In this document: piece after piece, positions 43,598 to 49,180 of the stretch
Numbering within the stretch: position 1 is the stretch's first letter
Layout: each line of letters begins with the position of its first letter
Assembly (NCBI RefSeq): GCF_039641995.1
Contig: NZ_CP087714.1
Location: forward strand, 930,001 to 994,000
Source of the DNA: Geoglobus acetivorans
GTDB lineage: Archaea; Halobacteriota; Archaeoglobi; Archaeoglobales; Archaeoglobaceae
DNA length: 64,000 nt
Direction: 5' to 3'
The notes under the pieces: model-generated
What the model saw: only the letters and a program-made list of their open reading frames with translations
Told to the model about the DNA's origin: nothing
Database searches by the model: none
Program-made: the position numbers and the translations under genes

Positions 43598-44317
43598 ATG
43601 AAGATCGCGGTGTTGGGGGCTGGAAATCTGGGAAGTGCGATTATTAAAAACGCATCCAGAAATGCCGAAGTTATTGCTGTTAGAAGAAGGAAGGAACTCC
43701 TGCCTGATATAGAAAACGTTACGGCCGTTTCTGAATTCGAGGAAACCAGGGAAGCGAACATCTTTCTGGTTACTCTGAAACCTGATGTTTTCAGGAAAAA
43801 CCTCGAAAGAATTGGTGAAATTGTCAAGGGAAAACCTCTGATAAGCTTTGTTCCGGGCATAAAGCTTGAGGACATGCTAAAGTACATTGATAATCCATTC
43901 AGGGCGATGACGAACATTGGAATCGAGGACGGAGGGGTAATCGCATGCTATCCTCCGGAAACTGCGGAACATCTCCGGTTTCTTGAGGCAGATTTCATTT
44001 TATGCCGGAGTGAAGAAGAGCTTGAAGCTATGACTTCCTTCATTGGCAGCGCTCCTGCCATAATAGCGAAACTAATCAATGCTTTTGTGGTTTCTGCCGT
44101 TAGAGAGGGAGTGAATTATGAACACGCTCTGAAAGCATCAGTGAACGTTTTCGGCACTGCAGGAAGGCTCTACGAGAAATACGGATTTGACGGGATGTTG
44201 AGGAGGATTGCCACTCCCGGCGGCACGACTGCCGAGGGCCTGAGAAATGTTGTTATGGCTGAGAAATACCTCATGGATGCACTCATCTCAGCAAGTAGGA
44301 GGGTGGAGGAGCTTTGA
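43598..44317 (+). CDS. proC: Pyrroline-5-carboxylate reductase
   Basis: The 239-residue protein starts MKIAVLGAGNLGSAI, an NADPH-binding Rossmann motif, and ends with the P5CR signature near ATPGGTTAEGLRNV, both in ProC. It reduces pyrroline-5-carboxylate to proline. It is slightly short of the usual 260-280 residues, mainly in the middle helices. A GAGGTGA ribosome binding site precedes the ATG. The HD-domain gene starts inside its last codons, so the two are coupled. Confidence 0.92.
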   Translation: MKIAVLGAGNLGSAIIKNASRNAEVIAVRRRKELLPDIENVTAVSEFEETREANIFLVTLKPDVFRKNLERIGEIVKGKPLISFVPGIKLEDMLKYIDNPFRAMTNIGIEDGGVIACYPPETAEHLRFLEADFILCRSEEELEAMTSFIGSAPAIIAKLINAFVVSAVREGVNYEHALKASVNVFGTAGRLYEKYGFDGMLRRIATPGGTTAEGLRNVVMAEKYLMDALISASRRVEEL

Positions 44318-44850
44318 AGGAGCTTGAAGTTCTAAGAAAATATGTGAGTGATGAGAAACTTGTGAAGCACTGTCTTGCGGTCTCAGCAGTGATGAGGGGA
44401 ATTGCGAGAGAACTTGGAGAAGATGAAAACATGTGGGCCAGAATTGGGCTTCTGCATGACATCGATTACGAGATTGTTGGAGAGGACATGGACAGACATG
44501 GTGAGGTCGGTGCAGAAATCCTTGAAAGAGAGGGCTATGGAGACATTGCCGAAATTGTCAAGAGGCACAATCACATGAGGTATGGGGATTATCGAGAGCC
44601 TGTGGAACTCGCATTGCAGGCTGCAGACAGTGTTTCAGGACTCATAATTGCATGTGCGCTTGTTAAGGGTGGCAAAATCAGCGAAGTTACGCCAAAGACT
44701 GTCAAAAAGAAATTCAAGGAGAAGAGCTTTGCAGCCGGCTGCGACAGGAACAGAATACGGCTTATAGAAGGTTTAATGCCCCTCGAAAAGCTCTATGAGG
44801 TAGGGATAGAGAGCCTGAAAGAAATAAAAGATGAGCTGGGCCTGAGCTAA
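44314..44850 (+). CDS. HD-domain phosphohydrolase
   Basis: The 178-residue protein is an HD-type metal-dependent hydrolase: His in VKHCLAVSAVM, the HD pair in GLLHDIDYEI, and the later His and Asp in KRHNHMRYGD and AADSVSGL. Members act on nucleotides or other phosphoesters; the archaeal group with HDIDYE is known as putative HDIG-domain proteins. TTG 44314 has GGAGGAG upstream and overlaps the proC stop by four bases. It converges with the DUF5305 gene, sharing four bases at the ends. Confidence 0.85.
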   Translation: MKELEVLRKYVSDEKLVKHCLAVSAVMRGIARELGEDENMWARIGLLHDIDYEIVGEDMDRHGEVGAEILEREGYGDIAEIVKRHNHMRYGDYREPVELALQAADSVSGLIIACALVKGGKISEVTPKTVKKKFKEKSFAAGCDRNRIRLIEGLMPLEKLYEVGIESLKEIKDELGLS

Positions 44851-45770
44851 TTTCTGAACTCGTAGGTCAGGCCGTTCGCTTCAATGCTGTAAACTGTTTC
44901 ATTTTTTTCCTCAGCTTTAAGTATGGGGCTATCTGTGAGCTGAAACACCTTTTTAAGGTCTTCAAGACTTTCCACAACAACCTTATTGCCCGTTTTTCTG
45001 CCGCTCACCATGTATGAGTTGCTTTCCATCCTTTTCGCTCTGATGTTCTGGAAATAGTCTCTGTTCAGGATTGCTGCGGGTATGAGTGCTGAGAAAGTCA
45101 GTGTGGCATATATCACTCTCGCATCCTGAATTTCCATTCCGGTCAGATAGTTTTGTTTTACGTTTCTGATATTTTCAGTAATCTGCTCGGTTTTTTCAGT
45201 ATCTGAGAATCTGTATAGCTCTGATTTTTTGATAAGAGATACTGAGTGCTGGAAGACGCCACTTTCGTCACTTGCCCTGAAATTAATCCTGATGTCCTGC
45301 TGCATTCTTGAGACTCCTGTTCCTTCCTTCACCCTCTCAAGGTCGCTTCTGAGCTCTGAAGGGTTTATGGTGAAGTTTATTGATGCAGAATTCTCGTACT
45401 TTCCGCTTTGATAAAATTTGGTTTCGTTCCACATTTCAATTCTGTTTTTGCCATCCTGGATGTAGTATGATGTATCTATTGTGAACACGTAACTTCCTGT
45501 CTTTTCGGTGGTTGTGGTGAAGAGGTATCTGCCTAGGAAACTCTCCGTCATTTCTGCGGGGTAATACTCCCTCGACACTTCACTTCCGTAAATGGATTGA
45601 TTCGAAAGGATTGCACTGTGTATAAGCTTGCCCTTCAAGGTTGAAATCTGAACTGTTTTTTCCTCAACATTTTCTGGCTGAATTGTGTATGCATAGGCTG
45701 CGATTCCTGCAGAAAGGACTGAAATAATAATCAGCGAAGCAGTAAGGATTCGTTTAATGTTTTCGTTCAT
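44847..45770 (-). CDS. DUF5305-like membrane protein of signal peptidase locus
   Basis: The 307-residue protein has an N-terminal membrane helix (residues about 8-25), a long exported beta-rich part (TTTTEKTGSYVFTIDTSYYI, KYENSASINFTI), and a second helix near residue 225 (VIYATLTFSALIPAAIL), leaving an inside tail. This layout matches the archaeal DUF5305 family, seen beside SipW-type signal peptidases. ATG 45770 is five bases after AGTGAT; GTG 45779 is an alternative. It is the last gene of the six-gene minus-strand locus. Role is unknown; assistance with assembly or anchoring is inferred from position. Confidence 0.75.
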   Translation of the reverse strand: MNENIKRILTASLIIISVLSAGIAAYAYTIQPENVEEKTVQISTLKGKLIHSAILSNQSIYGSEVSREYYPAEMTESFLGRYLFTTTTEKTGSYVFTIDTSYYIQDGKNRIEMWNETKFYQSGKYENSASINFTINPSELRSDLERVKEGTGVSRMQQDIRINFRASDESGVFQHSVSLIKKSELYRFSDTEKTEQITENIRNVKQNYLTGMEIQDARVIYATLTFSALIPAAILNRDYFQNIRAKRMESNSYMVSGRKTGNKVVVESLEDLKKVFQLTDSPILKAEEKNETVYSIEANGLTYEFRN

Positions 45771-45775
45771 TTCAA

Positions 45776-46600
45776 TCACTTCTCCTCGGCAATGACTGTC
45801 AGTGCATTGCTTTTAATGCCATGTTCAACAATCTCTGCACCGTTATTCATGCAATATTCTCCTGGACTCGTGAATTCCTGCTTTCCTGCAGGATTCATTT
45901 TTGTCGAAATTTCAACATCCAGGTATTCCACATCTCCTGCATTAACGATCCACAGAATTTTCGATGCACCCATCATTCCGTGACCGGTCTGGGTTACCGT
46001 AACGTTACCAGATGACTGGTTGAATCCGATAACTTCAAACTCGGCTGGAACAACATCCTTCACTGTCAGCAATTCATCACTGCCGTAATTTTTCAGGACG
46101 ATTCTGTATGTCCAGTATTCTTTTTCTCCCATCCTGACACTTTTATTTCCGCTCAGAAGAACTTTTTCAATTTCAAGTGTTGGATCAGTGATGTTTATCG
46201 TGCAGGTCTCAACTCTTGCTGAGCCGTTTGCCCAGACAGCATCTACTGCCAGCAGCACGGTGTATTCGCCCTCTCCACCAACGTATGTCGCCTGAATGTC
46301 TGCAGAATCTCCTGCATCAATGGCCACAGGGTTGTTGAATTCAAGGACGTTCACATCAGGTGTGATGTAGAATTCTGCATTTTCATTGAGGTTGTTCGTG
46401 AGTGTCAGGACTGTTACAACGTCTCCATTGGTAACTCTGAGGGACCCTACGGGACATGAAAAGGCGATGAATGAGCTGCTGTTATCTGTTATCTGATAGA
46501 CGGCGGTTCTTTCTCCACCGTACTCTCTAAAATTCCCGCTTGAACCCAGCAAAACTGTCAGGCTGAAGACAAGCAGGATAACTCCGTATACTATTCTCAT
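45776..46600 (-). CDS. Secreted protein with DUF1102-like N-terminus and CARDB/DUF11-like domain
   Basis: The 274-residue protein has a signal peptide, then SSGNFREYGGERTAVYQITDN, which repeats the pattern of the two DUF1102 proteins encoded upstream (GANF-x-x-Y-x-A-D-R-S and a V-x-D-D/D-N strand). Residues about 45-130 and 130-260 form beta-sandwich-like repeats of the DUF11/CARDB sort found in surface proteins (VLTLTNNLNENAEFYITP, YRIVLKNYGSDELLTVKDVVP). It may be a cap, anchor or minor subunit of the same fibre. GGAGGTTAAG precedes ATG 46600, which overlaps the signal peptidase stop by four bases. Confidence 0.72.
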   Translation of the reverse strand: MRIVYGVILLVFSLTVLLGSSGNFREYGGERTAVYQITDNSSSFIAFSCPVGSLRVTNGDVVTVLTLTNNLNENAEFYITPDVNVLEFNNPVAIDAGDSADIQATYVGGEGEYTVLLAVDAVWANGSARVETCTINITDPTLEIEKVLLSGNKSVRMGEKEYWTYRIVLKNYGSDELLTVKDVVPAEFEVIGFNQSSGNVTVTQTGHGMMGASKILWIVNAGDVEYLDVEISTKMNPAGKQEFTSPGEYCMNNGAEIVEHGIKSNALTVIAEEK

Positions 46601-47613
46601 ATTCTTAACCTCCTTTTTTTCAAAACTATGAAATCCTCCCCAAATCCTGTGAGCCTGTAAACTGCTATCAGGATCGCAGACAGTGCCGAGACCTGTACTA
46701 TCAGCGGCAGAAGTGGACTGGTTCTGTACAGCCCTTCCGTTACAGAAACCGGTAACAGGGGAAGGTAAGCGTAAACCTCAACACCTTCCGAATATATTCT
46801 CGTATCTTCAGGCACGGATACAGTCAGTGTGATGTCTCTGGAATCTCGTGGATTCAGATATGCCGGGCTACTACCAATAAGCTTTCCATCTTTTTCGAAG
46901 AAAAAGATCATTGGGTAATACGCTCTGTTCTCGAAATTCAGTGTTTTTTCAAATTCGGAACCGGGTAGATACCACCCCTCGTTTTGCCCTCCCGCAGAAG
47001 TCGAGGCATAGCTGAAGGACAGCGTCCCCCATGAAAGCATCGTGGATGCTATGAGTGATAGTATGAGGGCAGACGAGGCAATTCCGTAGAACAGACCTGC
47101 TGATATCTTGATTCTCTTCCTGTCTTTTTTTGTTTTCTTATTTTTACCGAGGGATAGGAATCCGAGACTTATGAGCAGAGCAGCCAGGAACAGGCTGTTT
47201 GAATGCAGAACCTCAACGAGTTTGCCTGCTCCGGGTACGAGAATGGGCTTTCCGGCAAAGCTTACGACCTCTCCCACAACTTTATCAGTGCTGATGGGGG
47301 GGTTCTTCCCGTTTTGCTGATCTGTGGCTATGTTGTTATCTCCTTTTGTAATGTATGCATCGCCTTCCGTGGCATACACTCTGTGGACGACATACATATC
47401 GCCCATTTGGAATACTATTATGCTTCCCGTATCTCCTTTTGATAGTGGATTGATCAGAAAGAGATCACCGACGCCTATTGTGGGTTCCATGCTCTCTGAA
47501 ATGGCGTAAGAGAACAAAACTGGCTGGTTCAAAACCAGGCCCAGGACTGATGATATGAGGAATATGAATGAAATCACAATAAAGACATTGCTAAGAACCT
47601 GAAAAATTCGCAT
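46597..47613 (-). CDS. SipW/SEC11-type signal peptidase with extra exported domain
   Basis: The 338-residue protein has an N-terminal anchor, catalytic Ser41 in AISESMEPT, a conserved His77 in YVVHRVY in place of the bacterial Lys, and Asp92 in TKGDNN: the Ser-His type of archaeal, eukaryotic and SipW signal peptidases. A second helix ends the peptidase at about residue 145. After it come a basic loop, another helix, an exported beta domain (GWYLPGSEFEKTLNFENRA) and a last helix. This C-terminal half is not part of ordinary signal peptidases and may hold substrates. It follows the DUF1102 pair by 26 bases. Confidence 0.85.
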   Translation of the reverse strand: MRIFQVLSNVFIVISFIFLISSVLGLVLNQPVLFSYAISESMEPTIGVGDLFLINPLSKGDTGSIIVFQMGDMYVVHRVYATEGDAYITKGDNNIATDQQNGKNPPISTDKVVGEVVSFAGKPILVPGAGKLVEVLHSNSLFLAALLISLGFLSLGKNKKTKKDRKRIKISAGLFYGIASSALILSLIASTMLSWGTLSFSYASTSAGGQNEGWYLPGSEFEKTLNFENRAYYPMIFFFEKDGKLIGSSPAYLNPRDSRDITLTVSVPEDTRIYSEGVEVYAYLPLLPVSVTEGLYRTSPLLPLIVQVSALSAILIAVYRLTGFGEDFIVLKKRRLRI

Positions 47614-47639
47614 TTATTCTCAACTCAAAAATTAAAAAA

Positions 47640-48179
47640 TTATGTCTGGCATTCGCCAGCATCTGCGCTTAGGCTCATCTGTGCAGTGTGTGCTCCAAGA
47701 CCCAGGCCATAGTTGTCGAATATCATTCCGATTGTAACCGGACTTCCGTGTTCAACTGTGAACTCAAGCTGCGTGCCGTACGTGGCCGATTCGTTATAGT
47801 CTCCGGTAAAGAGCATCAGGTTACCGTCGTTGCTCGATATTTTCACACATATTGGATATGCGGTTTCGTTGTTTTCCCAGAGCTCGTTGCTCACTTCAAA
47901 CACTTCTTCGAACACATATGTTGTATTCGGACTCAAACCCGTACCGAAGCCAAGACTTTCATTGTAGTTCTGGTTGTTTGCGCTGATTTCAACCGTTAGC
48001 TTACCGTTGTTCAGGTATGCGTAGGGCTGAAGAGGTGTGAGATCGATGAATTCATTATCGTCTGCAACTATCGCGACTGACATACTTCTGTCTGCTTCAT
48101 AATACCTGAAGTTTGCTCCGGCACTGATTGCCAGGATCAAACCTGCAAGAAGAAGCGCTATTCCAAATAGTTTTTTCAT
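47640..48179 (-). CDS. DUF1102 family secreted protein, second copy
   Basis: The 179-residue protein has a signal peptide ending in AISAGA, then NFRYYEADRSMSVAIVADD, followed by a beta sandwich with the TasA/camelysin-like EVFEVSNELWENN strand. It is a close paralogue of the next gene upstream. The mature protein has a few Cys (CVKIS, ECQT at the end). DUF1102 (PF06510) is an archaeal family of unknown function. ATG 48179 is preferred because GAGGTGA ends five bases before it; ATG 48185 is within that stretch. The signal peptidase follows directly. Confidence 0.8.
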   Translation of the reverse strand: MKKLFGIALLLAGLILAISAGANFRYYEADRSMSVAIVADDNEFIDLTPLQPYAYLNNGKLTVEISANNQNYNESLGFGTGLSPNTTYVFEEVFEVSNELWENNETAYPICVKISSNDGNLMLFTGDYNESATYGTQLEFTVEHGSPVTIGMIFDNYGLGLGAHTAQMSLSADAGECQT

Positions 48180-48193
48180 TTCCATTCACCTCA

Positions 48194-48781
48194 TTAGTCC
48201 TGCCCGCAATTACTTAGCTCTGCAGGCTCAGTTCCACTTCTGTACGCTTTCACTGTCATGGTCTCGTCCCATACATCTCCCGGACTATCGCCGTTTGCAC
48301 TCAGGTCGATTCCAATCTTGACTGAATCTCCTGGCTGAACCACAAAGCACACGTCTTCTCTTGCGCTATCTGATGCTGTTGCAGCCTGTCCACCATCAAC
48401 TGCGTACACTCCACCCTCATGTCCGTAAAACTCAATATTTGCGTTTGACGAAGTAACTCTAACAACTATAGGGAACTGCTCCCACAAATCGTTACTAACT
48501 GCAAAAACCTCATCAAAATTGTATTCGCTTGACGGACTGATTCCATCACCATACCCTGGATAATTCGGGTTATTTGCCGAAAAATCGATTGCAAGCATAC
48601 CATCCTCACCTATGTATGCGTAAGGCTGAATAGGCTCCAAATCTATAAGCTCTGTATCGTCTGTTACTATTGTCCAGTGGGCACTTCTATCAGCGTTGTA
48701 GTCGCTGAAATTTGCACCCACACCGAGAATAATCGCCAGGGTAGCGAAAATTCCCAGCAAGCCAATTCCTGTTTTTCTCAT
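48194..48781 (-). CDS. DUF1102 family secreted protein, first copy
   Basis: The 195-residue protein has a signal peptide ending in GVGA, then NFSDYNADRSAHWTIVTDD, LIDLEPIQPYAYI, and the EVFAVSNDLWEQF strand shared with the next gene. About 45 percent of visible positions in the first 60 residues match the second copy by eye. Two Cys near the C-terminus (EDVCFVV and SNCGQD) could form a disulfide. A strong ribosome binding site AAAGGAGTTG precedes the ATG. It is likely a major surface or fibre subunit, by position beside a dedicated SipW-type peptidase; this role is inferred. Confidence 0.8.
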   Translation of the reverse strand: MRKTGIGLLGIFATLAIILGVGANFSDYNADRSAHWTIVTDDTELIDLEPIQPYAYIGEDGMLAIDFSANNPNYPGYGDGISPSSEYNFDEVFAVSNDLWEQFPIVVRVTSSNANIEFYGHEGGVYAVDGGQAATASDSAREDVCFVVQPGDSVKIGIDLSANGDSPGDVWDETMTVKAYRSGTEPAELSNCGQD

Positions 48782-48845
48782 TTTTTCAACTCCTTTTTTA
48801 TTTCTAAACTGTAGTATGGAGAAAGGTTATTCTGTTAATGGCGAA

Positions 48846-49151
48846 TTACTTTTCGAAAAAAAGAGGCTTAAAAGCCTGAAGAAGAGAAACAAAGTCGGAA
48901 AATAGCTTGGAATTCTCGACAATCACTCTGTCTCTCTCCATCCTCAAAAAACCCTCTCTTTCGAGCATCGGGATATGGGTCTGCTTCAGACTGACGTAAA
49001 CGCTTTTCCGGAATTTGTGCCCGTCCTTTTTGTTTTTCTCTACAATGTAGTTTGTTATCTCTCTCACTGTTGCGTTTCCATCGTTTTCGAGAAGAAAAAT
49101 TATCATGAGCATTCTCCGCTCATTTCCAATTATCTCCGATAAATTTGCCAT
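48846..49151 (-). CDS. Winged-helix regulator of the DUF1102 locus
   Basis: The 101-residue protein begins MANLSEIIGNERRMLMIIF and has a winged-helix pattern: GNATVREITNYIVE, a recognition helix with KSVYVSLKQTHIPMLE, and the GFLRMERDRVIV wing. The NERRMLMI start resembles small haloarchaeal HTH proteins that sit beside surface-protein loci. A TATA box at 49172-49180 is 26 bases before ATG 49151, supporting a leaderless start there and not at ATG 49172. It is the first gene of the minus-strand locus and probably regulates it. Confidence 0.75.
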   Translation of the reverse strand: MANLSEIIGNERRMLMIIFLLENDGNATVREITNYIVEKNKKDGHKFRKSVYVSLKQTHIPMLEREGFLRMERDRVIVENSKLFSDFVSLLQAFKPLFFEK

Positions 49152-49171
49152 TACCTTTATTCTTCTGGTCA

Positions 49172-49180
49172 TTATATATA
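49172..49180 (-). promoter_or_regulatory. TATA box for the HTH-DUF1102 locus
   Basis: On the minus strand TATATATAA ends about 21 bases before ATG 49151, so transcription would start close to that codon. A possible alternative ATG at 49172 overlaps this TATA element, which argues against it being used. Confidence 0.55.

Follow-up and report, generated by a model that had tools for sequence, protein, structure and literature searches.

Several surface fibers of archaea and bacteria have been described that bear on the locus reported here. The thread of Sulfolobus acidocaldarius is described as a donor-strand fiber of beta-sandwich subunits, and structures exist for the Tafi pilus of a haloarchaeon and for AbpA of the archaeal bundling pili. 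According to an excerpt of PMC10269814, TasA carries Phe at P2' and is cleaved by SipW, and Escherichia coli LepB cleaves poorly when an aromatic residue occupies P2'. An excerpt of PMC10151520 describes TapA as the protein that initiates TasA filaments: it combines an N-terminus that differs little from the TasA one with a complete immunoglobulin (Ig) fold, and its gene overlaps the SipW gene. The present study concerns a stretch of 64,000 nucleotides from Geoglobus acetivorans (NZ_CP087714.1, positions 930,001 to 994,000; the window), in which six minus-strand open reading frames (ORFs; 44847-49172) encode a winged helix-turn-helix (wHTH) protein, two DUF1102 proteins, a signal peptidase, a TafC-like protein and a DUF5305-like protein. 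Judged from its genes and from models, this locus, which contains no sortase or usher genes, is likely to encode an AbpA/Tafi-type surface fiber.

All six ORFs were present in the order given in an earlier note on this DNA, as seen in the ORF listing and in scans against Pfam and NCBIfam, whose scores were judged against the curated cut-offs. The intergenic spacing along the operon was 64, 8, 26, -4 and -4 bases.

The mature DUF1102 protein was modeled (AF2, an AlphaFold-type model) from an alignment of 31 of the 42 DUF1102 ORFs in the window and regions L009-L024, leaving out nine that lacked the N-terminal motif described below and two from L018 with undetermined bases. The predicted local distance difference test (pLDDT) value was 83.5, and residues 1-7 fell below 50, suggesting a disordered N-terminus, which a free donor strand would be predicted to have. 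Such a model had been called for in the earlier note, and it gave AbpA, a TasA-like pilin of archaea, as the top match in the Protein Data Bank (PDB) by two methods. In Foldseek, AbpA (7ueg_A) was found with an E-value of 2.9e-5 and a probability of 1.00, followed mostly by FimA; in VIA, among 998 chains, it was again first (Z 8.2 over 118 residues, 3.1 A), and the Natrinema Tafi pilin (Z 7.2), the Sulfolobus thread (7pnb_A, Z 6.2) and FimA were also listed. TasA was not among the matches listed by either program, which does not imply its exclusion.

DUF1102 protein 1 is probably mature from residue 24 (Asn-Phe...), as predicted from the sequence. A motif of small residue-x-Phe-x-x-Tyr/Phe-x-x-x-Arg was found in 58 of 69 DUF1102 proteins and 18 of 27 TafC-like proteins, and in none of 67 other signal- or membrane-like ORFs; these counts rest on a crude signal-peptide rule, and the 67 include unverified ORFs. 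Most third DUF1102 genes had no such motif (10 of 12 in Archaeoglobi, nine of nine in Thermococci), and most of the motif-less proteins were also truncated before the conserved PYA region. These short third proteins may be acceptor-only end subunits. In the tree described below, 15 of 16 of them (from L054-L057, L059, L060, L079 and L139-L147) fell in one well-supported group, and that of L079 stood elsewhere on a long branch.

The connection to Tafi was provided by relatives in distant regions of haloarchaeal type, so labeled on grounds that include twin-arginine-type signals and Tafi matches. A profile (A9) of 20 DUF1102 ORFs selected from the 12 such regions chosen (L080-L091) matched the Tafi pilin 9p0a_C with an E-value of 4e-31, and one protein of this type, which exceeds the PF06510 cut-off at 34.9 bits, matched the same chain on its own (1.1e-7). 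All 20 proteins matched TafE. The profile of the window-type DUF1102 proteins in turn aligned to A9 with a probability of 99.2 over 148 columns, as compared with 0.2-4.7 for four other profile pairs. TafC exceeded its cut-off in four of 344 genomes; in these haloarchaeal loci (L122-L125), TafA and TafE were also above their cut-offs, and a wHTH and a signal peptidase gene accompanied them. DUF5305 adjoined in L123 and L124; in L122 some 1.3 kb separated it from the closest pilin gene, and in L125 it was not found. In the window, a wHTH, a signal peptidase, a DUF5305 protein and a TafC-type partner are co-located, the TafC match being at domain level (26.8 bits against a cut-off of 410, over the N-terminal part of TafC).

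A number of results weigh against a fiber of this type. MSP/PapD-type domains reached Z 7.0-7.6 in VIA, nearly the level of AbpA, and whole-chain TM-scores of the DUF1102 model against AbpA were low (0.38/0.36). The window DUF1102 proteins matched no NCBIfam Taf model at E-values up to 10, so that neither reaches the TafA or TafE cut-off; a sequence search of the PDB with their profile recovered neither Tafi nor AbpA chains; direct profile comparison was weak (TafE 26%, TafA 6%); the Tafi pilin had no PF06510 match; and comparison with the TasA-type profile found nothing (probability 0.4). Because the MSP values reflect a common type of sandwich, the resemblance in fold carries moderate weight by itself, and the models favor an AbpA-like beta sandwich in DUF1102 with moderate strength and by a small margin over MSP domains. 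The link from the window proteins to Tafi is transitive, since neither Taf models nor PDB sequences were matched and the direct comparisons were weak. Given these comparisons and the absence of PF06510 from the Tafi pilin, the locus would appear to work like a Taf/AbpA pilus as its distant relative, and not to be a Taf equivalog. The suggestion of the earlier note that the filament system was undescribed could not be upheld, as the solved haloarchaeal Tafi pilus already represents the kind.

PF06510 (DUF1102) was detected in 25 of the 59 Archaeoglobi-class genomes and 88 of the 115 Thermococcus-class genomes, and in none of 14 control genomes. Among the 344 sampled genomes of the phylum it was found in 54, the 29 outside Archaeoglobi being weak matches. 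The TafC-like profile found exactly the same 25 Archaeoglobi-class genomes, and DUF5305 was present in all 25 of them as compared with four of the 34 DUF1102-negative ones. At least two DUF1102 genes, the peptidase, the TafC-like and the DUF5305 gene occurred together in 27 of 28 Archaeoglobi regions, the one exception being cut off by a contig boundary; a wHTH gene was located in 17 of the 27 complete regions, and the DUF5305 gene was divergent in five (L069, L075-L078). In Thermococci, where 20 of the 88 positive genomes were sampled for synteny, all 20 regions had the order wHTH, two or three DUF1102, peptidase, TafC-like and DUF5305. The six genes are thus conserved as a unit, the regulator aside in Archaeoglobi, and so pass a test that the earlier note had set. 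DUF1102, peptidase and DUF5305 were co-located in 10 of the 12 haloarchaeal-type regions. The TafC-like and DUF1102 genome sets coincide, and the same genes come together in 27 of 28 and 20 of 20 regions, which is more than chance.

In a DUF1102 tree of 117 rows, the first and second genes of the loci formed largely separate groups, each mixing Archaeoglobi with Thermococci, which suggests an old duplication that has been maintained as a pair; the cassette was possibly transferred. In this tree 21 of 114 branches are open, several label changes occur per position and long branches were flagged. Fusions of DUF1102 to VWA, LamG and beta-helix domains were also found, suggesting exchangeable adhesive tips. 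Two of the fusions, to a right-handed beta-helix (L080:10932-12542) and to LamG (L084:7641-8870), have a DUF1102-type part that scores slightly under the Pfam cut-off. No paper naming the DUF1102 family was found in the literature searched, and among the matches listed for Geoglobus none named DUF5305, DUF7344 or PF06510.

The signal peptidase carries Ser41 and His77, which were invariant in 16 of 16 homologues and which are the catalytic pair in enzymes of the archaeal/endoplasmic reticulum (ER) type. With the SipW model NF046067 it scored 31 bits, below the cut-off of 190. Its C-terminal domain is flanked by two membrane helices (assigned by eye) and gave weak Ig-type matches at most; a PDB sequence search produced no usable match for this outer domain, and profile comparison with the TafC-like protein no usable result. 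The domain is perhaps an Ig-like beta sandwich with a possible chaperone or docking role. The G. acetivorans genome encodes four TIGR02228 signal peptidases, two inside its two DUF1102 loci and two elsewhere, so the enzymes of the loci are additional ones. This agrees with the earlier view of a dedicated, SipW-like signal peptidase.

The TafC-like protein had a weak DUF11 match in addition to its similarity to TafC. Profile comparison showed that the first 25 residues of its mature form are common to it and DUF1102 (probability 64.5). The alignment of TafC-like proteins comprised 12 of 16 ORFs (two without the motif, that of L018 and the truncated one of L022 were omitted). The model of the protein resembled PapD-like pilus chaperones in the N-terminal part (YadV, Z 9.9; Caf1M, Z 9.7) and sortase pilins in the C-terminal part (BcpA, Z 11.6, 2.2 A), and integrins matched across most of its length. 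PDB sequence searches returned nothing for the first DUF1102 protein, the TafC-like protein or the profiles of either. The TafC-like protein joins the N-terminus of DUF1102 to an Ig-type body of another kind, and its gene and the peptidase gene overlap by four bases; a role as an initiator, like TapA, or as a terminal subunit is therefore probable. For the last gene product, the PF17231 (DUF5305) match spans most of the model, under the gathering cut-off, and the protein is homologous to the corresponding members of other loci; a membrane anchor or assembly partner is its probable role.

Four further DUF1102 domains were found in the same genome, all at one place (L007), a second and larger version of the locus, which holds a wHTH gene, three DUF1102 genes, a fusion of DUF1102 to a VWA/integrin-beta-like domain, and TafC-like, signal peptidase and DUF5305 genes. 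Identity between the window and this second locus was 35% for the peptidases, 45% for the TafC-like proteins and 24% for the DUF5305 proteins. The fusion protein (L007:3959-5527) has 522 residues and is a possible tip adhesin. The second TafC-like protein (L007:2880-3923) ends in a tail rich in Cys and in Asp/Ser, which the window copy lacks. The other congeneric genome that carries both loci (G025) has, at the orthologous locus, a signal peptidase divided between two overlapping ORFs (L063:5706-6723), perhaps because of a frameshift or an assembly error.

The earlier note had likened the subunits to TasA. Membership in the TasA/camelysin sequence family was not supported, as Pfam and NCBIfam scans of the DUF1102 proteins gave no match to PF12389 or TIGR04088, and the G. 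acetivorans genome had no TIGR04088 protein. The DUF5305-signal peptidase pair, in turn, adjoins small secreted proteins in five other Archaeoglobi regions; of seven such proteins scanned, all seven exceeded the TIGR04088 cut-off and six that of PF12389. Since pairs of this kind adjoin proteins of these families, related processing and anchoring pairs appear to serve both TasA-type and DUF1102-type subunits. The TasA/camelysin-type regions are L108:4228-5603, L110:3975-5412, L106:5079-5609, L107:4461-4946 and L109:9929-10402, L110 belonging to a second Geoglobus genome.

Other explanations of the locus were considered. The DUF1102 proteins could be non-polymerizing surface proteins, such as S-layer partners or receptors, that are merely processed by the linked peptidase; beta-sandwich folds are common on cell surfaces, and the MSP/PapD-like domains match nearly as AbpA does. 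This appears unlikely, given that the top fold match is a pilin, that haloarchaeal relatives link DUF1102 to the solved Tafi pilin, and that two conserved paralogues, a conserved N-terminal motif and adhesin-type fusions are found. A fiber with the TafC-like protein as main subunit and DUF1102 as adapters or tips would fit the resemblance of the TafC-like C-terminal domain to sortase pilins, as well as the better fit of the haloarchaeal DUF1102 relatives to TafE, labeled an adapter by NCBIfam, than to TafA. It is also unlikely: all 27 complete Archaeoglobi regions hold at least two DUF1102 genes and a single TafC-like gene, the TafC-like protein has only 119-142 residues in five of them, and the AbpA-like fold belongs to DUF1102.

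Type IV pili and archaellum-like systems are the commonest archaeal filaments, and this frequency is what speaks for such a system here. None of the six genes matched a family of type IV pilins, assembly ATPases or prepilin peptidases in the Pfam and NCBIfam scans, and the locus peptidase belongs to the archaeal class I enzymes, so a type IV system is extremely improbable. The window comes from the same genus as Geoglobus ahangari, which binds Fe(III) oxides by curled appendages whose genes were unknown to the authors of PMC4600277. Assignment of these appendages to the locus is very unlikely, as profile searches of the G. ahangari 234T genome found no DUF1102, TafC-like or DUF5305 match. For that strain it is ruled out, because a genome that lacks the locus cannot owe its appendages to it.

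For the AbpA/Tafi-type fiber, a sequence of steps can be proposed. The wHTH protein would control the operon, and the DUF1102 subunits and the TafC-like protein, which carry short signal peptides, would be exported by Sec. The dedicated peptidase, whose enzyme family is established, would cleave before the conserved x-Phe, as SipW does on TasA. The freed N-terminal strand (x-F-x-x-Y-x-A-x-R) would then fill the groove of the next DUF1102 subunit, resulting in a beads-on-a-string filament; this step is proposed from the fold resemblance and from the free N-terminus on the monomer model. As the TafC-like protein has this N-terminal strand too, attached to another body, it could donate the strand to a DUF1102 subunit and so nucleate or end the fiber, in the manner of TapA with TasA. 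At the membrane, subunits might be held or passed on by the DUF5305 protein and the outer peptidase domain. Adhesion or cell-cell contact is the most likely function of such a fiber.

These results suggest a probable function for DUF1102 and would extend Taf/AbpA-type fibers to hyperthermophiles, including most genomes of the Thermococcus class that were searched. The shared DUF5305-signal peptidase pair ties TasA-type to Taf-type fibers and points to a common assembly machine. More tentatively, and with some doubt, a peptidase with an outer Ig-like domain and a DUF5305 protein could form a general minimal platform for donor-strand assembly in archaea that stands in for chaperone and usher and serves at least three subunit families (TasA-type, TYAYW-type and DUF1102), with the TafC-like protein as TapA-like initiator and the short third DUF1102 proteins as acceptor-only ends. 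Gene deletion is feasible in Thermococcus laboratory strains.

The features of the locus are compiled in the table below. The regulator probably starts at 49151 rather than 49172, because only the second ATG was conserved (the alignment shows it in four Geoglobus loci, and the ATG at 49172 was not kept) and a TATA-like box lies at 49173-49180. The position of this putative box suggests a leaderless operon transcript; sigma-70 promoter scans are unsuited to archaea. A convergent plus-strand gene (44314-44850), whose product looks HD-domain-like by eye, shares four bases with the end of the DUF5305 gene.

Features of the candidate fiber locus (positions in the window)
Feature	Position	Strand	Remarks
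TATA-like box	49173..49180	-	22-29 bases upstream of the conserved regulator start; mostly kept in alignment
wHTH regulator (DUF7344)	48846..49151	-	ORF extends to 49172; DUF7344 50.8 bits (cut-off 27.8)
DUF1102 protein 1, probable fiber subunit	48194..48781	-	PF06510 190.5 bits (cut-off 22.2); AF2 model
DUF1102 protein 2, paralogous probable fiber subunit	47640..48185	-	PF06510 176.4 bits (cut-off 22.2)
Archaeal/ER-type Ser-His signal peptidase	46597..47613	-	TIGR02228 65.1 bits (cut-off 51.85)
Extra outer domain of signal peptidase	46723..47034	-	alignable in 16/16 homologues
TafC-like secreted protein	45776..46600	-	NF052521 E 2.6e-6, residues 21-142
DUF5305-like membrane protein	44847..45779	-	PF17231 23.7 bits (cut-off 29)

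Among the described systems, the Tafi pilus of Natrinema sp. J7-2 (PDB 9p0a; TafA, TafE, TafC and TafF in NCBIfam) shares with the locus a wHTH, an archaeal signal peptidase, a TafC with a related N-terminal domain and, at most of its loci, a DUF5305-type protein; the pilins appear to be related through the haloarchaeal-type DUF1102 proteins. It differs in having twin-arginine-type signals (by eye) where those of the window are of the Sec type, a C-terminal LamG domain in TafC where that of the window protein is Ig-like, and another gene order. AbpA of the Pyrobaculum calidifontis archaeal bundling pili (PDB 7ueg) is the best structural match of the DUF1102 model, but identity is 11-12% and no profile match exists at the sequence level; the S. 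acidocaldarius thread (Saci_0406, PDB 7pnb) resembles the model in fold, but less closely than AbpA. In the TasA-TapA-SipW system of Bacillus subtilis, as far as the excerpts describe it, a dedicated ER-type signal peptidase, a Phe near the cut site and an Ig-fold accessory protein that has the N-terminal strand of the subunit and a gene overlapping the peptidase gene all recall the locus. DUF1102, however, lies outside PF12389 and TIGR04088, and the tapA-sipW-tasA set, as given in the excerpt of PMC10151520, includes no DUF5305 gene.

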